From Tersicoccus solisilvae (GTDB taxonomy: Bacteria > Actinomycetota > Actinomycetes > Actinomycetales > Micrococcaceae), in contig NZ_BMJI01000001.1 of NCBI RefSeq assembly GCF_014643255.1, positions 124,001 through 188,000 of the forward strand: a DNA stretch of 64,000 nucleotides, given 5' to 3'. The notes under the pieces are model-generated. The model was not told where the DNA came from and made no database searches. It worked only from the letters and a program-made list of their open reading frames with translations. Position 1 is the stretch's first letter. Every line of letters starts with the position of its first letter. The translations under genes were made by a program, and so were the position numbers. Shown in pieces: positions 43,223 through 56,659 of this stretch.

Positions 43223-44152
<930 letters not shown>

Positions 44153-46915: not shown

Positions 46916-47914
46916 GTGAGTGCGGTAGCGACGGCGTTCTGGGTGACGGGCTGCGGACGTGGTGAGTTGCGCCGCGAGGACCTGCCGGCCCCGGGCTCCG
47001 GGGAGGTGCTCGTGCGCACCCGGCACACGGGGATCAGCCGGGGCACCGAGACCACCGTGTTCCAGGACCGGGTGCCGCCCGAGGTCGCCGACCAGATGCG
47101 GGCGCCCCATCAGGAGGGCGAGTTCGGTGGCCCGGTCAAGTACGGCTATCTGAACGTCGGCGTCGTCGAGCGCGGACCGGCGGAGCTGACCGGCCGTACC
47201 GTGTTCAGCCTCGCCCCCCACCAGGATCTGCTGGTGCTGCCCGCCGCCGACGTGCACGTGGTGCCCGACGACGTGCCGGCGCGGCGCGCGGTGCTCGCCG
47301 GCACGGTCGAGACCGCGGTCAACGGCGTCTGGGAGGCCGGCCCGCGCCTGGGCGACCGCGTGGCCGTCGTCGGCGGCGGCATGGTCGGCGGGACGGTCGC
47401 GGCGCTGCTGGCCGGCTTCCCGCTGGACCGGCTGCAACTGGTGGACACCGATCCCCGCCGCCGCGCGCTGGCCGACGCCTTCGGCCTCGAGCTCGTCGCC
47501 CCGGACGACGCGGCCGGGGACTGCGACGTCGTCCTGCACGCCTCCGGGACCGAGGCGGGGCTCGCCACCGCCCTCGAGCTGGCCGGGGCGGACGCGACGG
47601 TGGTCGAGATGTCGTGGTTCGGCGTCCGCTCCCCCCGGGTGCCGCTCGGCGCCGCGTTCCACGCCCGTCGCCTGCAGTTGCGGGCCAGCCAGGTCGGCGA
47701 GGTCGCGCAGGCCCGGCGCGCGCGCCGCAGCCGCGCCGACCGGCTCGACCTGGCCCTGCGCACGCTCGCCGACGACCGGTTCGACGTCTTCCTCTCCGGC
47801 AGCAGCCCGTTCGCCGACCTGCCGGCCACGATGGCCCGGGTGACCGACCCGCAGTCGTCCACCCTGTGTCACGTCATCGACTACCCTGCCGTCGATCCCG
47901 AATCGAGGAGCTGA
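46916..47914 (+). CDS. Zinc-less MDR dehydrogenase of the pteridine-like cluster
   Basis: A 332-residue medium-chain dehydrogenase/reductase. The catalytic-domain segment reads TRHTGISRGTETTVF, where zinc enzymes have a Cys, and the GHE motif is replaced by GGPVKYGYLNVGVVE, so no catalytic zinc site remains. The nucleotide fold is intact: DRVAVVGGGMVGGTVAALL and LVDTDPRRR (Asp suggests NAD). It resembles the BchC-like branch that reduces or oxidises ring-bound side chains. Its stop is three bases before the PTPS-like gene. It starts a four-gene string with the PTPS-like protein, glycosyltransferase and methyltransferase. Confidence 0.8.
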   Translation: MSAVATAFWVTGCGRGELRREDLPAPGSGEVLVRTRHTGISRGTETTVFQDRVPPEVADQMRAPHQEGEFGGPVKYGYLNVGVVERGPAELTGRTVFSLAPHQDLLVLPAADVHVVPDDVPARRAVLAGTVETAVNGVWEAGPRLGDRVAVVGGGMVGGTVAALLAGFPLDRLQLVDTDPRRRALADAFGLELVAPDDAAGDCDVVLHASGTEAGLATALELAGADATVVEMSWFGVRSPRVPLGAAFHARRLQLRASQVGEVAQARRARRSRADRLDLALRTLADDRFDVFLSGSSPFADLPATMARVTDPQSSTLCHVIDYPAVDPESRS

Positions 47915-47917
47915 CCC

Positions 47918-48310
47918 GTGTACCGCCTGACCGTCCGCGACCACGTCATGATCGCCCACTCGCTGCCCGACCCGGCCTTCGGGCCGGCCCAGGGCCTGCA
48001 CGGCGCGACGTTCGTCGTCGAGGCGACGTTCCACCGCGCCGAGCTGAACGAACACGCCATCGTGCTCGACATCGGGGTCGCCACGGCGGCCCTGTCCGCC
48101 GTGCTCGCCGACCTGGCGTACCGCAACCTGGACGACCACCCGGACCTCGCGGGCGAGTTGACGACGACCGAGCGGCTCGCCCGGTTCGTCGCGGACCGGC
48201 TCGCGGGGCACCTGGCGGCCGAGCTGCCCGGGCACGGAGTGACCGAGCTGGACGTCGTGCTGCGGGAACACCCGGACGCGTGGGCCGGCTACACCCGGAG
48301 CCTGGACTGA
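47918..48310 (+). CDS. 6-pyruvoyl/6-carboxy-tetrahydropterin synthase-like protein, atypical metal site
   Basis: A 130-residue T-fold protein of the PTPS/QueD family. MYRLTVRDHVMIAHSLPD and GPAQGLHGATFVVEATF correspond to the AH and HGH zinc motifs, but the second His of HGH is Ala and no catalytic Cys precedes it. LDIGVATAALSAVLADLAYRNLDD and TTERLARFVADRL are family segments, and REHPDAWAGY holds the conserved Glu near the end. It likely acts on a pterin or triaminopyrimidine but not by the classic PTPS mechanism. GAGGAG precedes the GTG. Confidence 0.82.
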   Translation: MYRLTVRDHVMIAHSLPDPAFGPAQGLHGATFVVEATFHRAELNEHAIVLDIGVATAALSAVLADLAYRNLDDHPDLAGELTTTERLARFVADRLAGHLAAELPGHGVTELDVVLREHPDAWAGYTRSLD

Positions 48311-48346
48311 GCCCCCACGCATGACCCCGGTCGCACGAGGCCCGGC

Positions 48347-49504
48347 ATGAGCGCGGTGGACCGAGTGGCCCTGCTGACGCCGGCCAACGTCCGGCACCGC
48401 AGCGGGGGCACGCTGTTCAACCGCGCCGTCGCGGCCCACGCCGCCGCCCTGGGGCACCGGGTCGACGTCGTCCCGGTGCGCGGGCTCTGGCCGCGCCCGG
48501 ACCGGCAGGCGCCCGGGCGGGTGCTCGCCGCCGCGGCCGGCTATCGGCGGGTCCTGGTCGACGGCCTGATCGCGACCCGCAATCCGGCGGCGCTCACCGC
48601 CCTCGCCCGGCGCGGCGTGCACACCGGCCTGCTCGTCCACCTGCCCGAGCGACACGGGGGGACGGCTCAGGCCCGCGCCCTGGCCGCGGCCGACGTGGTC
48701 GTCGTCACCAGCGCCTGGACCGGGCGCTGGCTGCTGGCCCACGCCTGGCCGCTCACCCGCCGCCCCGCCGCGGACCTGATCGCGCGACTCGTCGTCGCCC
48801 GCCCGGGCAGCGCGCACCCCGGAGCGGCGGCCCGTCCCGCCACGCCCCCTCTCGCCCCGTCGGCCCGAGCCGGGTCACCGCGCATCGCCTGCGTGGCCGC
48901 GCTGACCCCGAACAAGAATCAGCTCGCCCTCGTGCGAGCGCTGGCCGAGACGACCGATGCCGCCTGGTCCGCCGAGTTCATCGGCAGCCGAACGGCCGAC
49001 CCGCGGCACGCCGCCCGCGTCCGGGACGCCGCGGCGCCGCTGGGCGATCGGGTCCGACTGACCGGGGAGCTCGACGCCGGCGCCCTGGACCGGCGTTGGC
49101 CGCACATCGACCTCCTCGTGCTGCCCTCCACCTGGGAGAGCTGGGGAATGGTCGTCACCGAGGCGCTGCGGCACGGCGTGCCCGCGCTCGTGGGCCGCGG
49201 CACCGGCGCCGCCGAGGCGCTGGCCGGTCCGCGCGGCAGCGGCGCGTGGCGGCACGCCCAACGGGCCGACCGGCGGGTTCGCGCCGACGCGCTCCCCGGG
49301 GCGGTGGTCGACCCCGAGGCCGACGCGATCGCCGCCGCCCTGCGCCCCTGGCTCACCGACCCCCAGCTGCGCACGCGGTGGCGGGACGCGGCCACCGACA
49401 CGCCGCTCCCCGGTTGGGACCCGGCGACGCGGGCCGTCCTGGACGCGATGCGACCGGCGTCGCGCACCGTCCCCACCCGGGCCGACGACCCTTTCGAAGG
49501 ATGA
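48347..49504 (+). CDS. GT4-like glycosyltransferase
   Basis: A 385-residue GT-B glycosyltransferase. N-terminal half: VALLTPANVRHRSGGTLFNRAVAAHAAALGH (acceptor domain glycine loop) and TGLLVHLPERHGG. C-terminal half: RIACVAALTPNKNQLALVRAL, RLTGELDAGAL, DLLVLPSTWESWGMVVTEALRHGVPALV, the nucleotide-sugar E-x7-E type motif of GT4. No membrane helix. It sits between the PTPS-like and methyltransferase genes, so a small-molecule acceptor such as a pteridine is plausible. Confidence 0.83.
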   Translation: MSAVDRVALLTPANVRHRSGGTLFNRAVAAHAAALGHRVDVVPVRGLWPRPDRQAPGRVLAAAAGYRRVLVDGLIATRNPAALTALARRGVHTGLLVHLPERHGGTAQARALAAADVVVVTSAWTGRWLLAHAWPLTRRPAADLIARLVVARPGSAHPGAAARPATPPLAPSARAGSPRIACVAALTPNKNQLALVRALAETTDAAWSAEFIGSRTADPRHAARVRDAAAPLGDRVRLTGELDAGALDRRWPHIDLLVLPSTWESWGMVVTEALRHGVPALVGRGTGAAEALAGPRGSGAWRHAQRADRRVRADALPGAVVDPEADAIAAALRPWLTDPQLRTRWRDAATDTPLPGWDPATRAVLDAMRPASRTVPTRADDPFEG

Positions 49505-49514
49505 CGAGGACACG

Positions 49515-50462
49515 ATGACGCAACTGGATCCCATCAGCGCCGACTGGCTCGCCCTGCGCGAGCACGCCGACGACCGGGCCCGCGGGGCGACGGTGGCCAC
49601 GTTGCTGCCGGCACTCGCCCGATCCCTGACCGGGTCGTCGGCGGCCGGGGACGGTCACGATCCCGACCGGGACGCCACGACCGCCCGGCCGCCCGTGCTG
49701 TGCGTCGACCTCGGGACCGGCACGGGAGCCAACCCGCGCTGGCTGATGCCCCGGCTTCCGGTCGATCAGACGTGGCTGCTCGTCGACCACGACGCCGGGC
49801 TGCTCGCCGAACTCGGCGAGCGGCTGGCCGGGACGGCGGTGCCGTGGGAGCCGGTGGACTCCGACGTCGCGCACCTGCGTGGCGTCCTCGCCGCGCACCG
49901 GCGCCCGGACCAGGGGGTGCTGGTGACGTGTGCGGCCCTGCTGGACCTGCTCGACGCCGCGACGGTGCACGACCTCGCCGGAATCCTGCGGGAGGCGCGG
50001 GCGCACGGGCTGTTCAGCCTGAGCGTGGACGGCAGCGTCGACCTGAGCCCGGCGGATCCGCTCGACGACGCGATCCAGGCCGCGTTCAACGCCCATCAGC
50101 AGCGGCACGGGCACCTCGGCCCCGACGGCATCCGGACGCTGCGCGACGCCCTGGACGACGGCGACGGCGCCGGCGCCGGCAGCACCGTCACCGTGCAGCA
50201 GACGGACTGGCGGCTCGACGCCGCCGAGTCCGAGGATCGGGCCCTGATCGAACGACTGCTGCGGGACCGCGCGGACGCGGTGCGGGATCAGGTGGCCCGC
50301 ACCGCGGCCGAACGACCGGGCACCGGGGCCGAACGGACCGGGGTGGACCTGAGCGGGGCCGACGTCGATGCCTGGCTGTCGGGCCGGCTCGCGGCCGTCC
50401 GCGCCGGTGCGCTGCGGGTTCGGGTCGGGCACCAGGACCTGCTGGTCACCCCGGCGCGCTGA
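49515..50462 (+). CDS. Class I SAM-dependent methyltransferase
   Basis: A 315-residue protein. The SAM-binding motif I is VLCVDLGTGTGANPRWLMPRL (about 62-82), followed by WLLVDHDAGLLAELGERL (motif post-I, acidic residue for ribose) and GVLVTCAALLDLLDAATVHDL. The C-terminal part has DTDWRLDAAESEDRALIERLLRDRADAVRD-like helices and VRVGHQDLLVTPAR. GAAGGATGACGAGGACACG precedes ATG. It is ten bases after the glycosyltransferase and closes the run. Confidence 0.82.
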   Translation: MTQLDPISADWLALREHADDRARGATVATLLPALARSLTGSSAAGDGHDPDRDATTARPPVLCVDLGTGTGANPRWLMPRLPVDQTWLLVDHDAGLLAELGERLAGTAVPWEPVDSDVAHLRGVLAAHRRPDQGVLVTCAALLDLLDAATVHDLAGILREARAHGLFSLSVDGSVDLSPADPLDDAIQAAFNAHQQRHGHLGPDGIRTLRDALDDGDGAGAGSTVTVQQTDWRLDAAESEDRALIERLLRDRADAVRDQVARTAAERPGTGAERTGVDLSGADVDAWLSGRLAAVRAGALRVRVGHQDLLVTPAR

Positions 50463-50486
50463 GCCCGCATCGCGCCTCCTCGGGGA

Positions 50487-50503
50487 CCGGGCTCGCAGCC
50501 CGG
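50487..50503. terminator. GC hairpin at the end of the methyltransferase gene
   Basis: CCGGGCT-CGC-AGCCCGG, a perfect 7-bp stem, lies between convergent stops (50462 and 50506). Confidence 0.5.
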
Positions 50504-50505
50504 GC

Positions 50506-50910
50506 TCAGCGGCTCGGGTCGTCGTCCTCGTCGGCGCCGTGGTCGGTCAGGTAGCGCTCACCCGACTCGGTCTCGTGCAGCTCGTAGGCCGTCGACGCGG
50601 TCGCGGTCGCATCGTCCCGCTCCTGCCGCGCCCGCTCGCTCATCGGCTCGTCGACCGGCGACCACTCGGGATCGCCCCAGATGGCGCCGAGACCCTTCGA
50701 CCCCGTGGTGGGTGCGCCGGTGACGAACTCCTCGCCGTCCTCGCCGCGCGCCAGCTCGTCGTCACCGCGAACGCGGGTCTCGCCCTCGTCGGCCGCGCGC
50801 CCCGGGTCGATGCCGGGACTGGTGCGGGGCGGCCATCCCGTGGCCTCCTCGTCGGCCGCCGGATCGGGTCCCTCGGTGCTCTCGGGATGCTGCGGGTTTC
50901 TCCTGCTCAT
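50506..50910 (-). CDS. Acidic, probably disordered hypothetical protein
   Basis: A 134-residue protein rich in Asp, Glu, Gly and Arg without hydrophobic core or recognised domain. SPVDEPMSERARQERDD and TESGERYLTDHG are its most structured-looking parts. GAGGAGGGCATC before ATG 50910 supports translation. Similar small acidic proteins of unknown role are common in Micrococcales. It lies between the methyltransferase and the membrane-protein gene. Confidence 0.6.
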   Translation of the reverse strand: MSRRNPQHPESTEGPDPAADEEATGWPPRTSPGIDPGRAADEGETRVRGDDELARGEDGEEFVTGAPTTGSKGLGAIWGDPEWSPVDEPMSERARQERDDATATASTAYELHETESGERYLTDHGADEDDDPSR

Positions 50911-51013
50911 GATGCCCTCCTCACCGGTCGCGGTCCTCACGTCCGGATCGATTCGAGATTCGAGAGATCTGGTCAGCCTTCCACAGTGCCTCGGCGGGCG
51001 CCACCATCGGCGA

Positions 51014-52174
51014 CTACCGGCCGTCCTCGGGGGTCGCCACGTCCGTCGCGTCCTCCTTCTGCGCCTGGTCCAGTTGCTCGATCAACCGATGACGTTCATT
51101 CTCCCTCCGCGAGTACGTCGCGCTGCGGATGGCCTGCTCGTCGTCGAAGCTGGAGCCCAGCGCGCCCGCCACGGTGCCCAGGGAGCTGGACAGCCAGGCC
51201 AGGTCCAGATAGTCCGTGACGTTGACCGGGTGGCCGAGCTGGCTGGTGAAGTAGCCGCCGTCGATCACGGCGAGGGCACCCACCAGCAGGATCAGGAACA
51301 GCGTCGCGTACATGATCATGGCGCCGAGCGTGAGGGTCACGACGGTGAAGGAGTTGTAGAGCACCGCGCGGCGCCGGGGAGCCGGCCCGCTCGGGCGTTC
51401 CCACAGGGAGTTGTGCGCGATCAGCCAGCTGACGAAGACCGCGACGGAGAAGAGGCTGATGCCGGTGAGCCGCGCACTGCTGAGCGCGTCCGACATCTCG
51501 TAGATGCTCGTGTAGAACACGCCGAAGGCGCCCACCGCAGCGGCGCCGGCGAGCGCACCGGAGAGGGAGGGCAGCAGCCGCCACGGCCGGTTGCTGCGGA
51601 CCATGCCGGCGAGCAGCTGCGTGTAGCCGCGCACCCCGCCCATCTCGAAGAGGGAGTTCTCCGCATCCGGCTCGGTGGTGCGGCGGATCGGCGCCAGCCG
51701 CGCCTCGACCGGGTTGTTGATCAGCACGGGGTCGACGTCGCCGACATCGTCGGCGAGCACCACCCGCAGGCCCTCGCGCACCACGCGGCGGGCTCGGCGC
51801 CGCACCCCGGCCACCCCGAGGGCGGGCACGGACACCAGGACGATCCGGTTGCCGTGGTCGAAGTCGCCGACCAGACCGGACCCGGCCGGGGTCAGTCGCG
51901 GCAGGTCCGTCAGGTAGACCACGGCGTACCACCCGTGCCGGTCGCGCAGCGTCTTCCCCGCCAGTTCCAGCGGGATCTCCCCGCGGTCGTTCAGCGGCAG
52001 GGACTCGATGACGGTCTGCACCTCGATGTCCACCTCGGGCCCGAGCGCGGTCTGGGCCGCCTCGTGCGCCGTCGCGGTGAGCGATGCGGCGATCCGTGCC
52101 GGGAAGCCCTCGTCGGCGACGACGCCGATGCGCACCCACTGCGGTGCACCGGGGGCGACCGCCGGTTCACCCAC
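51014..52174 (-). CDS. Four-helix membrane protein of unknown function
   Basis: About 386 residues. The first 180 form a soluble alpha/beta domain (VRIGVVADEGFPARIAASL, YAVVYLTDLPRLT, DFDHGNRIVLVSVPALG), the middle has about four helices (LSGALAGAAAVGAFGVFYTS; ISLFSVAVFVSWLIAHN; LTLGAMIMYATLFLILLVGAL), and the end is a charged helix. No family recognised beyond uncharacterised actinobacterial proteins. GTG 52174 overlaps the ribAD stop by eight bases; GTG 52201 is an alternative start. Coupling to ribAD hints at transport or signalling tied to that pathway. Confidence 0.65.
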   Translation of the reverse strand: MGEPAVAPGAPQWVRIGVVADEGFPARIAASLTATAHEAAQTALGPEVDIEVQTVIESLPLNDRGEIPLELAGKTLRDRHGWYAVVYLTDLPRLTPAGSGLVGDFDHGNRIVLVSVPALGVAGVRRRARRVVREGLRVVLADDVGDVDPVLINNPVEARLAPIRRTTEPDAENSLFEMGGVRGYTQLLAGMVRSNRPWRLLPSLSGALAGAAAVGAFGVFYTSIYEMSDALSSARLTGISLFSVAVFVSWLIAHNSLWERPSGPAPRRRAVLYNSFTVVTLTLGAMIMYATLFLILLVGALAVIDGGYFTSQLGHPVNVTDYLDLAWLSSSLGTVAGALGSSFDDEQAIRSATYSRRENERHRLIEQLDQAQKEDATDVATPEDGR

Positions 52175-53495
52175 CGAGGAGCCGCTCGCCCGGCGCGCCA
52201 CGACCGTCGGGGCGCAGGTCGAAGTGCACGCAGGTGTCCGGCCCGAGCGGGAAGGACACCGACGGGGGCCGGAGGGCGCCGTCGAGCCGGTCGGCGCCGG
52301 GGAACCGCACGCCGGGCACCCCGTCCCCGATCAGGACCGGCGCGAGGGTGAGGAACAGGTGGTCGATCGCGCCCGCGGCGAGGAAGCGGGAGACGGTGCG
52401 GCCGCCGCCCTCGATCAGCAGCCGGGTCAGGCCGCGCTCGGCCAGCCGGTTGACGATGGCGGCCGGCGCGAGGCCGTCGGGGCCGACCGGCAGCCGGACG
52501 ACGTCCACGTGGGGCGGCACGGCGGGAACCGCGGCGTCCGTACCGACCAGCCAGATGGTCGGGGCGGCGGGATCGGACAGCACGCGGGCTGCGGGGCTCG
52601 TCCGGGCGGTCGGGTCGATGACCACCCGTACCGGGTCGGTGCCCGGCACGGAACGGACGGTCAGCTGCGGGTCGTCGGCGGCGACCGTGCCGGCCCCGAC
52701 GACGACGGCGTCGACGAGGGCCCGCAGCCGGTGCAGGTGCTCCCGGTCCTCCACCGACGTCAGCTCCGCGCCGTCACCGCTGCGTGCCGCGATGAACCCG
52801 TCCGCGCTCTGGCCCATCTGGGCGATGACGACCGGCGCCGTCCCGGCGATGTCGTGATACCGGCCGAGGAGCTCGGGATCGGTGTCGGCGGCGGGGTCGT
52901 GCTGCATCCGGGCTCGCTTGGTGGCCAGGTAGCGCTCGTTCTCCGCGCGCGCGGGCACGACGAGGTTGTGCCGGCCGACCACCTCGATGCCGAGGGCCTC
53001 GAGCGCGAGCTGCTTGGCCGGGTTGCCCGAGAGCAGGCTGATCCGGGTGGCGCCGAGCGAGGCGAGGATGGCGGCCGCCGCGTGATAGGTGCGCGCGTCC
53101 TCCTCGTGCCCGAGGGCGAGGTTCGCATCCACCGTGTCCATCCCGGCGTCCTGCAGTTCGTAGGCGCGCAGCTTCTCCGCCAGGCCGATGCCGCGGCCCT
53201 CGTGTCCCCGCAGGTAGACGACGGCGCCGCGGCCGACGGCGGCGATCGTCGCCAGGGCCGCGTCCAGCTGGTCCCCGCAGTCGCAGCGCCAGGACCCGAA
53301 GCCGTCACCGGTGAGGCATTCCGAGTGCACCCGGACCATGGGCGGCCCGGCGACGTCGCTGGTCAGGTCACCCTGCGAGAGCACCACGTGTTCGATGCCG
53401 GCGTCGTCGATGAAGCCGAGCATGTCGAACACGCCGTGGCGGCACGGCAGGGACGTGGTGGCGACCCGGGTCACCACGGACGAGTGGGCGGTCAT
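52167..53495 (-). CDS. GTP cyclohydrolase II fused to RibD-type reductase domain
   Basis: A 442-residue fusion. Residues about 1-200 are RibA: VHSECLTGDGFGSWRCDCGDQLDAAL gives the three zinc Cys, and GHEGRGIGLAEKLRAYELQDAGMDTVDANLALG the catalytic Arg region. Residues about 215-430 are the RibD C-terminal reductase: VDAVVVGAGTVAADDPQLTVR, PVRVVIDPTAR, LLIEGGGRTVSRFLAAGAIDHLFLTLAPVLIGDG. The deaminase domain of RibD and RibB are absent, so it is not a complete riboflavin enzyme. It would open GTP to the diaminopyrimidine and could reduce its ribosyl group. Its genomic neighbours suggest a specialised pathway. Confidence 0.9.
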   Translation of the reverse strand: MTAHSSVVTRVATTSLPCRHGVFDMLGFIDDAGIEHVVLSQGDLTSDVAGPPMVRVHSECLTGDGFGSWRCDCGDQLDAALATIAAVGRGAVVYLRGHEGRGIGLAEKLRAYELQDAGMDTVDANLALGHEEDARTYHAAAAILASLGATRISLLSGNPAKQLALEALGIEVVGRHNLVVPARAENERYLATKRARMQHDPAADTDPELLGRYHDIAGTAPVVIAQMGQSADGFIAARSGDGAELTSVEDREHLHRLRALVDAVVVGAGTVAADDPQLTVRSVPGTDPVRVVIDPTARTSPAARVLSDPAAPTIWLVGTDAAVPAVPPHVDVVRLPVGPDGLAPAAIVNRLAERGLTRLLIEGGGRTVSRFLAAGAIDHLFLTLAPVLIGDGVPGVRFPGADRLDGALRPPSVSFPLGPDTCVHFDLRPDGRGAPGERLLGG

Positions 53496-54536: not shown

Positions 54537-55307
54537 TCAGGCGCGGTCGCCCTCCACCCCGTCCGCGTACCGGCGCAGGGCGTCCCGGACGAACGCCGCG
54601 TTCGCGGCGCCGCCGTAGTGCGCCGCGAACCGGTCGTCGGCGACGTACAGCTCACCCAGGCCGCGCAGGTAGTCCGCGTCCGGAGCGCCGGTGCCGTGCC
54701 CGGGCGTGCCCGGGATGGAGGCCAGCCCGTCGGCGTGCCGGGCGGCGAGCGCCTGGGCGGTCTCCCCGGCCGGGTCCTCGCCGGCGTCGGCCGCGGCGGC
54801 CCAGTCCTGCTGCAGGCGTTCCTGTGCCCGCTGCCACCCGGCCCGCTCGTCGTCGGTCATGCCGCGCCACCAGGCGTCGGAGCTCCGGTAGGCCTCCTGC
54901 CCCCACCGCTGCTCCACCTCGTCCCGGTATCGCGTGTGGTCGAACCCGTGCAGTGCTTCCTCGGCCATCAGGTCATCTCCTCGTTCGAGGCGGCGCAGGG
55001 TGTTCTGCACCGCCGTGATCTGGTCGTCCAGTCGCTGCTGCTCGAGGCGGAGCCACCGCAGGTGGACCGTGAGGGCCTCACCGGGATCGGTCTGCCGTGC
55101 CATCACCTCGCGGATGCGGGGCAGACCCAGACCCAGCTGGCGCAGCAGCAGGATGCGCTGCAGGGCCAGCAGACCGGTCCGGTCGTAGTAGCGGTAGCCG
55201 TTGGCGCCGACCCGGCTCGGCTCGAGCAGGCCGACGTCCCCGTAGTGACGCAGCGTGCGGCTGGTGGTGCCGGCCAGCCGCGCGATCTGGTGGATGGACC
55301 ATTCCAT
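54537..55307 (-). CDS. MerR-family regulator with TipAS-type C-terminal domain
   Basis: A 256-residue regulator. The MerR DNA-binding part (about 1-75) is WSIHQIARLAGTTSRTLRHYGDVGLLEPSRVGANGYRYY. A coiled-coil dimer helix follows (LRLEQQRLDDQITAVQNTLRRLERG). The C-terminal domain (about 125-250) resembles TipAS: EVEQRWGQEAYRSSDAWWRGMTDDERAGWQ and HYGGAANAAFVRDALRRYADG, the fold that binds thiopeptide-like molecules. The promoter just upstream has a 19-bp spacer with a central dyad, so it is probably autoregulated. Confidence 0.92.
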   Translation of the reverse strand: MEWSIHQIARLAGTTSRTLRHYGDVGLLEPSRVGANGYRYYDRTGLLALQRILLLRQLGLGLPRIREVMARQTDPGEALTVHLRWLRLEQQRLDDQITAVQNTLRRLERGDDLMAEEALHGFDHTRYRDEVEQRWGQEAYRSSDAWWRGMTDDERAGWQRAQERLQQDWAAAADAGEDPAGETAQALAARHADGLASIPGTPGHGTGAPDADYLRGLGELYVADDRFAAHYGGAANAAFVRDALRRYADGVEGDRA

Positions 55308-55314
55308 GACGACC

Positions 55315-55345
55315 ACGGTAGGAGTTGACGCACCGTCAAGGTCAA
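55315..55345 (-). promoter_or_regulatory. MerR-type promoter/operator, apparently giving a leaderless mRNA
   Basis: Minus strand: TTGACC (55340-55345), 19-base spacer, TACCGT (55315-55320). The spacer holds the perfect dyad TTGACG-GTG-CGTCAA (55325-55339). The overlong spacer with a dyad is the hallmark of MerR-activated promoters. The ATG at 55307 is eight bases after the -10, so transcription would begin at or next to the start codon. Confidence 0.8.
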
Positions 55346-55363
55346 GAGGGGAGGATGCGGCCC

Positions 55364-56659
55364 TCAGTCCGGCAGCACGAGGAAGGCGGCGACCGCGGCG
55401 CCGAGCGCCGCGGCGTCGTCGACGTGGCACAGCTCCCGCGCGGAGTGCATGGAGAGCAGGCCGAGGCCGACGTCGATGGTGCGGATGCCGAGCCGGGTGG
55501 CCGTCAGCGGGCCGATGGTCGAGCCGCACGGGACGCCGTTGTGGGAGACGAACTCCTGGTACGGCACGCCGGCGGCGGCGCAGGCGCGGGCCCACACGGC
55601 GGTGCCGACGGCGTCGGTGGCGTAGCGCTGATTCGCGTTGAGCTTGAGCAGCGGACCGCCGCCCGGACGGGGCCGGTTGACCGGGTCGTGCCGGCCGGGC
55701 TGGTTGGGGTGCACCAGGTGCCCGGCGTCCGCGGACAGGCAGATCGACGCCGCGAGCGCCCGGCGGAAGGTGACCGCGTCGCCCCCCAGGCCCGCGGTGA
55801 TCCGCTCCAGCACGTCCGCGAGCAGCGGCCCGGAGGCCCCGGACCGGGACTGCGAGCCGAGCTCCTCGTGGTCGAAAGCGGCGAGGACGGGGATCGTCGA
55901 CCCGTCACCGGGCGCGGCGATGATCGCGCGCAGCCCCGCATGCACGGAGGAGAGATTGTCGAGCCGGCCGGAGGCGAGGAACTCCTCCGCCCCACCGAAG
56001 CGGCGCGGCGGCTGGGTGTCGGCGACGACGAGATCCCAGCCGACGACGTGATCGGGGTCGACGCCGCTGCCGCGCAGCACCCGGTCCATCAGCCCGCCGG
56101 GGTCACCGGCGCCCCAGATCGGCTGCACCCCGGTCTGCCGGTCCAGTGCCAGCCCGTCGTTGGCGGAGCGGTCCAGGTGGATGGCCAGCTGGGGGATGCG
56201 GGCGACGGGTCCGGTGGCGATCAGGTGCTCGCTCCCGCGCCGCGTGGTGACGCGGCCGGCGACGCACAGCTCCCGGTCCAGCCAGGAGTTCAGCAGCGGC
56301 CCGCCGTAGATCTCGACGGCGGCCTGCTGCCAGCCGAGGACGCCGACGTCGGGGTGCGGCTTGAGCATGAAACCCGGCGAATCGGTGTGGGCGCCGATCA
56401 CCCGGAAGCCGGTGCTCGGGCCGGCGGTCGAGGGCACCACCCAGGCCACCAGGGCGCCGTCCCGGATCACGAGATAGCGGCCGGGGCCGCGCCCGGACCA
56501 GTCGTCCCGCTCGTCGAGAGCGGTGAACCCGTGCTCGATCAGGCGCCGGGCGCCCTCCGCGGCCGCGTGGAAGGACGACGGAGCGGCGGTCACATACGCG
56601 GCCAGGTCCTCGATGTACGCGTCCACGTCGCCCGAGAGGGGCACAGCACCGTCCGTCAT
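55364..56659 (-). CDS. M18 family aminopeptidase (aspartyl aminopeptidase-like)
   Basis: A 431-residue M18 metallopeptidase. RVIGAHTDSPGFMLKP contains the first metal His-Asp, AFDHEELGSQSRSGA the catalytic Glu and metal Glu, DAGHLVHPNQPGRHDPVNRP and GSTIGPLTATRLGIRTIDVGLGLLSMHSARELCHV the remaining ligands. The enzymes form dodecamers and remove acidic N-terminal residues from peptides. It lies 64 bases downstream of the antiporter gene on the same strand. Confidence 0.93.
   Translation of the reverse strand: MTDGAVPLSGDVDAYIEDLAAYVTAAPSSFHAAAEGARRLIEHGFTALDERDDWSGRGPGRYLVIRDGALVAWVVPSTAGPSTGFRVIGAHTDSPGFMLKPHPDVGVLGWQQAAVEIYGGPLLNSWLDRELCVAGRVTTRRGSEHLIATGPVARIPQLAIHLDRSANDGLALDRQTGVQPIWGAGDPGGLMDRVLRGSGVDPDHVVGWDLVVADTQPPRRFGGAEEFLASGRLDNLSSVHAGLRAIIAAPGDGSTIPVLAAFDHEELGSQSRSGASGPLLADVLERITAGLGGDAVTFRRALAASICLSADAGHLVHPNQPGRHDPVNRPRPGGGPLLKLNANQRYATDAVGTAVWARACAAAGVPYQEFVSHNGVPCGSTIGPLTATRLGIRTIDVGLGLLSMHSARELCHVDDAAALGAAVAAFLVLPD

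Follow-up and report, generated by a model that had tools for sequence, protein, structure and literature searches.

A gene cassette linked to GTP cyclohydrolase II in Tersicoccus solisilvae, other actinobacteria and proteobacteria, and its possible membrane-anchored product with a GTP-derived head group

Introduction

What is made jointly by a dehydrogenase, a 6-pyruvoyltetrahydropterin synthase (PTPS)-like protein, a glycosyltransferase and a methyltransferase whose genes lie close to that of a GTP cyclohydrolase II (GCH2)? The question is raised by a 64,000-nucleotide stretch of the Tersicoccus solisilvae genome (G000:C1:124001-188000, here called the window; the genome is 3.34 Mb in 116 contigs), for which a sequence-only reading had proposed a pathway to a glycosylated, methylated GTP-derived pteridine or pyrimidine. 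The analyses presented here demonstrate that these genes do belong to a dedicated, conserved set, and we consider the chances about even that this set is a mobile biosynthetic module making a membrane-anchored glycoconjugate with a GTP-derived head group. Since a CDP-alcohol phosphatidyltransferase (CDP-AP), a flippase-like LPG_TM protein and a lipoteichoic acid (LTA)-synthase-like sulfatase, all missed in the earlier reading, are conserved partners of the set, we favour a phospholipid-anchored product, glycosylated and methylated, over a soluble one.

The genes concerned, with positions in the window and occurrence among the 98 distinct loci defined below, are as follows.

46916-47914, + strand: medium-chain dehydrogenase/reductase (MDR)-type dehydrogenase, BchC-like, a core gene (98 of 98 loci); NCBIfam matches below cut-offs
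47918-48310, + strand: PTPS-like T-fold protein of the SCO6650 subfamily, a core gene (98 of 98 loci); PF01242 at 2.5e-21
48347-49504, + strand: GT4 glycosyltransferase, a core gene (94 of 98 loci); PF00534 at 4.5e-18
49515-50462, + strand: class I S-adenosylmethionine-dependent methyltransferase-like protein (family in 52 of 98 loci); a homologue matches PF13649
51014-52201, - strand: membrane protein, between the four + strand genes and RibAD
52167-53495, - strand: RibAD, a GCH2 fused to a RibD C-terminal reductase; PF00925 at 2e-57 and PF01872 at 2.2e-38

The four + strand genes (46916-50462) are indeed packed together as had been claimed, and the short gaps of 3, 36 and 10 bases between them suggest a single operon; the fusion of GCH2 to the RibD reductase, on the opposite strand, was also read correctly.

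A conserved gene set

The loci compared were 19 neighbourhoods from genomes of the same order (L025-L043) and the best 80 of 565 relatives in genomes of named species; L044 was dropped as belonging to a weak PTPS-like match, and L105 is the same contig as L027, which leaves 98 distinct loci. Presence was counted from six-frame hidden Markov model searches (E<=1e-6), the gene caller having missed some genes (e.g. the creatininases in L148, L149 and L153). Beside the three core genes, the methyltransferase, LPG_TM and CDP-AP were each found in 52 loci, RibA (GCH2) and RibD_C in 43 each, a creatininase in 16 and the LTA-synthase-like sulfatase in 13; two further RibA matches, in L036 and L075, are RibD_C and were left out of the RibA count. 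MDR, PTPS, GT4, LPG_TM and CDP-AP occur together in 49 loci, of which 37 also have RibA and 46 have RibA or RibD_C. The usual order is CDP-AP on the opposite strand, then MDR, PTPS, GT4, methyltransferase, LPG_TM, RibA and RibD. Within the order sample (119 genomes, our own included), 20 genomes hold the PTPS-like gene (a 21st, with E 6.7e-4, was not counted), and in 10 of the 20 a GCH2 is located no more than about 5 kb away. The co-occurrence of genes around the PTPS-like gene, by which the earlier proposal was to stand or fall, is not chance.

Hosts include Streptomyces, Micromonospora, Amycolatopsis, Actinomadura, Nocardiopsis, Pseudonocardia, Modestobacter and metagenome-assembled genomes of Thermoleophilia. 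In a sample spread over the phylum, the PTPS-like family profile was matched by 102 of 396 genomes (E<=0.001); nine of these reach 195 bits and one further genome has 112 bits over part of the profile, while the remainder score no higher than 93 bits and probably belong to other PTPS families.

A CDP-AP is recognized by the motif D..DG..AR.(8)G...D...D, which was matched in 46 of the 52 cluster members. The window genome itself carries CDP-AP and LPG_TM genes head to head on contig C5 (about 17.4-19.3 kb), 63% identical to the L077 copy and 50% identical to the L121 copy, respectively; the CDP-AP matches PF01066 at 3.7e-10 and has the catalytic motif. This pair seems to correspond to the CDP-AP and LPG_TM genes that the window lacks. 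A gene beside it (L162:9287-10126) was considered as a pathway phosphatase and rejected, as it scores above the NCBIfam cut-off for HisN (296 vs 275 bits).

The membrane protein at 51014-52201, counted as part of the set in the sequence-only reading, gave no BLAST match at E 1e-5 against proteins predicted in the other loci, and we no longer regard it as a member. Elsewhere in the window, 54537-55595 (- strand), adjoining the region, encodes a MerR regulator with a TipAS antibiotic-recognition domain, and 43358-44152 (+ strand), from a translation read by eye, a secreted-type protein with a QAAPVQ repeat run and a LysM-like C-terminus.

Plasmids and other phyla

The set had been discussed as actinobacterial, a scope that proved too narrow. 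Among PLSDB plasmids, the gene tables of which are incomplete, the cassette is present on a plasmid of Streptomyces fungicidicus and on a 59 kb mobilizable Microbacterium plasmid, and also on a plasmid of the gammaproteobacterium Thiodictyon and on alphaproteobacterial plasmids of Methylosinus, Palleronia, Peteryoungia, Rhodobacteraceae SC52, Rhizobium SL42 and Neorhizobium. In Rhizobium SL42 and Peteryoungia the genes stand in a row: sulfatase, LPG_TM, FkbM methyltransferase, CDP-AP, RibA, MDR, PTPS, GT4, methyltransferase, RibD and cytochrome b; the SL42 sulfatase matches PF00884 slightly under the cut-off. The diagnostic motif of the PTPS-like protein is kept in 11 aligned plasmid sequences, one of which reads FGSAQ, and phage records gave no match. 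In these records the cassette genes are annotated as unrelated, for example as '6-carboxytetrahydropterin synthase' or 'RibD family protein'.

Some copies are reduced or differ in content. On two Streptomyces linear plasmids (L187, L189) the PTPS-like gene is unaccompanied by MDR and GT4; close to it are cupin and metallo-beta-lactamase (MBL)-fold genes and a BTAD regulator. On two Rhodobacterales plasmids (L183, L185) a reduced MDR-PTPS-methyltransferase-RibD cassette has a PfkB-type kinase or ribokinase gene nearby. A cytochrome b gene is found within three proteobacterial copies (L179, L184 and L186, the last, from SL42, of b561 type), which might point to a redox function of the product.

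The PTPS-like protein and its operon partners

The family profile matches SCO6650 of Streptomyces coelicolor (PDB 3d7j) at E 6e-59, and the AlphaFold model of the window protein (pLDDT 94.2) has a TM score of 0.94 and 53% identity to 3d7j; the T-fold is confirmed by comparison with E. coli QueD entries (TM 0.66-0.77) and animal PTPS (TM 0.76-0.82). PTPS and QueD enzymes work with a catalytic Cys, an Asp-His dyad and zinc histidines that include an HGH motif. In the alignments of the PTPS-like family the Cys region reads FGPAQ; the site of the Asp-His dyad reads L-x-Y-x-N-L-D, Tyr68 replacing the catalytic His of LDHKNLD; and HGH is replaced by HGA (HGAT) or HGV, with loss of one zinc His. All rows hold Y-x-[ND]-L, the one miss of the pattern (L096) reading YKNLN; three rows are off motif (L094, AHT; L128 and L144, FGPAR) and keep HGAT, and the only HGH string in 99 frames (L032) is a read-through outside the aligned protein. 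Glu117 is invariant in 17 sequences and, in our placement, corresponds to the PTPS Glu responsible for binding the pterin ring. Considering that the catalytic residues are lost and Glu117 is kept, the protein probably binds the 2-amino-4-oxo ring and does no PTPS reaction. Thus, of the proposed dedicated set with GTP opening and side-chain handling, the conserved set, GCH2 included, has held, whereas ordinary PTPS side-chain chemistry is unlikely.

The window MDR has no Pfam match at 1e-3; against NCBIfam it matches HpnZ (1.5e-10), BchC (1.7e-9) and TDH (4e-8), all far under the cut-offs (37.3 vs 291.25 bits for the BchC equivalog). Cys is absent from the invariant columns of a 15-sequence alignment, and the enzyme is probably without a catalytic zinc. 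The window methyltransferase-like protein itself has no Pfam match; a 36% identical protein (L028:9602-10435) matches Methyltransf_25 (PF13649).

Two kinds of cluster GCH2

The Tyr of the GCH2 motif KLRAY decides the product, and it is present in the window RibAD. At the corresponding KLxAY site the cluster GCH2s fall into two kinds: Tyr is found in 28 loci, and 15 are Tyr-less (Met in eight, His in six, Leu in one); L036 and L075 were left out of this typing on the ground given above. A creatininase-family gene accompanies all 15 Tyr-less GCH2s (in L137 as a partial gene only) and none of the 28 with Tyr, and the Streptomyces creatininases beside the cluster GCH2 were confirmed by a genome-wide search. 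Creatininases at other genomic sites are frequent (26 of 41 genomes), so it is the position beside GCH2 that counts. A RibD-type reductase is present in all 28 loci with a Tyr-type GCH2. We had considered a strict swap, Tyr-type GCH2 with RibD against Tyr-less GCH2 with creatininase, and this idea is weakened by a wider RibD model, which found a reductase in four of the 15 Tyr-less clusters.

In the RibA tree the cluster GCH2s form several separate groups (fused RibAD, with the window protein; a Micromonospora type; the Tyr-less clade; the alphaproteobacterial proteins), so that GTP opening seems to have been recruited to the cluster more than once. The Tyr-less GCH2s are one clade (support 99/94), and their pairing with a creatininase may therefore be a single event; L177 is a riboflavin-type GCH2 in this tree and not a Tyr-less case. 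Two order genomes (G005, G024) encode a 618-aa protein in which GCH2 is fused to an acyl-CoA dehydrogenase-like domain (L164:7834-9690 and L166:6866-8722; Pfam on L164), and these fusions fall in the Micromonospora-type group.

The Streptomyces cluster GCH2s read KLxAM. SCO6655 is reportedly a GCH2 of this Tyr-to-Met type that stops at the formylaminopyrimidine and, judging from gene numbers, we infer that it sits in the S. coelicolor copy of the cluster. In contrast to SCO6655, the window RibAD and 28 other Tyr-type cluster GCH2s would be expected to yield the diamino compound. The 2006 study of SCO6655 by Spoonamore et al. is cited in PMC3509567, and SCO6655 is mentioned once in PMC2853524. 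The archaeal ArfA/ArfB system opens GTP in two steps, which the clade of GCH2 with creatininase resembles; all three creatininases tested score under the ArfB cut-off (34-39 vs 180 bits) and are nearer to MftE (about 134 of 172 bits). Given the single clade and these scores, a role of the creatininase as deformylating partner of the Tyr-less GCH2 is a lead only.

A proposed route to a lipid-linked product

We suggest a route in which GCH2 would open GTP to 2,5-diamino-6-(5-phosphoribosylamino)pyrimidin-4-one or, in the Tyr-less clade, would stop at the formylamino compound, from which the creatininase-family hydrolase would take off the formyl group. The RibD-type reductase would then turn the ribosyl chain into a ribityl chain, and the BchC-like MDR would oxidize one side-chain hydroxyl to a ketone. 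With the 2-amino-4-oxo ring held by the PTPS-like protein, this ketone might close on the 5-amino group or tautomerize to give a dihydropteridine-type head group. CDP-AP would join the polyol (phosphate) to CDP-diacylglycerol, GT4 would add a sugar and the methyltransferase a methyl group, and the product would be flipped by the LPG_TM protein and modified outside by the LTA-synthase-like sulfatase. The opening of GTP by GCH2 is well grounded, and the reduction by the RibD domain follows from what is known of the family; we infer the MDR oxidation, ring closure or tautomerization, phospholipid joining, glycosylation, methylation and flipping from family membership and co-occurrence, and the order of steps after GTP opening and the lipid link are to be read likewise. 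GTP cyclohydrolase I (GCH1) makes a ketone by rearrangement; more speculatively, reduction at C1' followed by oxidation at C2' could yield a ketone as from GCH1, and so a route to a dihydropterin without that enzyme.

Several observations weigh against a lipid-linked product of GTP. In about half of the 98 loci, mostly of Arthrobacter and its kin, only MDR-PTPS-GT4 lies inside the stretch read, and the window genome keeps its CDP-AP and LPG_TM on a contig apart from the window. Among the seven annotated proteobacterial plasmid loci, CDP-AP is near in only three, RibA in three and RibD in six (the incompleteness of the gene tables bears on these counts). With RibD in only four of the 15 Tyr-less clusters, clusters of that clade do not always encode the reduction step. 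Six of 52 members escaped the CDP-AP motif search, and CDP-AP and LPG_TM are broad families from whose sequences a substrate is not readable. Finally, the gene set has no known product: the sequence-only reading had named no characterized actinobacterial product of this combination, and in the open-licence literature we found no paper on either the gene set or its product.

Alternative readings

The same genes could instead yield a soluble or secreted product, a pteridine or ribitylaminopyrimidine carrying sugar and methyl groups, with CDP-AP and LPG_TM acting in export or on another lipid. This agrees with MDR-PTPS-GT4 being the steadiest core, with the Palleronia and SC52 plasmids, on which MDR-PTPS-methyltransferase-RibD has no CDP-AP annotated nearby (in incomplete tables), and with the existence of pterin glycosides in other bacteria (see below). 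We regard it as possible and on the unlikely side, given that the two lipid genes each occur in 52 of the 98 loci and jointly in 49, and recur in alphaproteobacterial cassettes and in our own genome.

It is likewise rather unlikely, in our estimate, that the product is a ribityl-diaminopyrimidine conjugate and never a pteridine, the PTPS-like protein merely binding the ring. The RibD-type reductase in every locus with a Tyr-type GCH2 and the loss of the PTPS catalytic residues speak for such a conjugate, but no genes of the set are more constant than those of the MDR and the T-fold protein, which a mere binding role would not lead one to expect. This possibility overlaps the others and is silent on the lipid question.

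We find it improbable that RibAD is a plain riboflavin GCH2 that lies by chance near an unrelated sugar-modification operon. It is the sole GCH2 match in the window genome, and contig C6 (L003:5506-8558) carries an operon of ribD (with deaminase domain), ribE, ribB and ribH without ribA; the statement that other riboflavin genes are lacking thus holds for the neighbourhood and fails for the genome. As no other GCH2 matched in this genome, RibAD probably supplies riboflavin too, and a role confined to the cassette is unlikely here. In most relatives the picture differs: of the 10 order genomes in which a GCH2 lies near the PTPS-like gene, seven have a further GCH2 elsewhere and three, our own included, do not; at least two GCH2 matches are found in 10 of the 20 order genomes with the PTPS-like gene, vs eight of the 99 without it (one of the eight by a fragment); and more than one match is present in 38 of 41 named genomes (in G511 only via a short fragment), a scan that covered 41 of the 80 named loci. 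Other families and another phylum likewise show a GCH2 close to the PTPS-like gene, and the neighbourhood data contradict chance.

That the PTPS-like protein is QueD, in an operon for queuosine or a 7-deazapurine antibiotic, is suggested by the plasmid annotation as 6-carboxytetrahydropterin synthase and is very improbable, since it scores 34 bits against the 89.25-bit cut-off of the QueD equivalog TIGR03367, the residues for zinc and catalysis (one zinc His, the Cys and Asp-His) are replaced, and neither QueE nor QueC is among the annotated plasmid neighbours in those incomplete tables.

Relation to known systems

With QueD and PTPS the window protein shares the T-fold and the Pfam PTPS domain but not the Cys, the Asp-His dyad or one zinc His (HGAT for HGH); SCO6650 is of the same subfamily as the window protein. 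SCO6650 reportedly lacks zinc, a catalytic triad and PTPS activity, and its PDB rows read only 'uncharacterized protein' and 'PTPS homolog'; the cassette now offers the subfamily a pathway context. RibAD has the GCH2 and RibD_C domains in common with riboflavin RibA/RibD, whereas the conserved set, unlike the riboflavin pathway, holds no lumazine or riboflavin synthase. Phosphatidylinositol mannoside synthesis also combines a CDP-alcohol phosphatidyltransferase, a GT4 and membrane steps, the difference being that the head group here would derive from GTP. The pteridine glycosides of cyanobacteria and Chlorobium arise by the GCH1-biopterin route and are not known to involve lipid genes. Pterin glycosides occur in cyanobacteria (PMC13259868) and in Chlorobium (PMC5683033), and a glycosylated pterin is what they would have in common with the product proposed here.

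Significance

Each of the enzyme families is known; as far as our searches of the open-licence literature show, the combination and its product have not been described. Taken in full, our proposal is a new class of membrane lipid: a phospholipid with a glycosylated, methylated pteridine (or ribitylaminopyrimidine) head group, made from GTP via GCH2 without GCH1, encoded by a mobile cassette of actinobacteria and proteobacteria, and perhaps redox-active. We hold this complete version tentatively, at somewhat less than even chances. Although widespread, with copies in two phyla and on plasmids, the cassette is annotated as unrelated genes. If the proposal is true, it would add a new lipid or cofactor, would give the orphan Streptomyces enzymes SCO6650 and SCO6655 a pathway, and would establish a second use of GTP cyclohydrolase II beside riboflavin.

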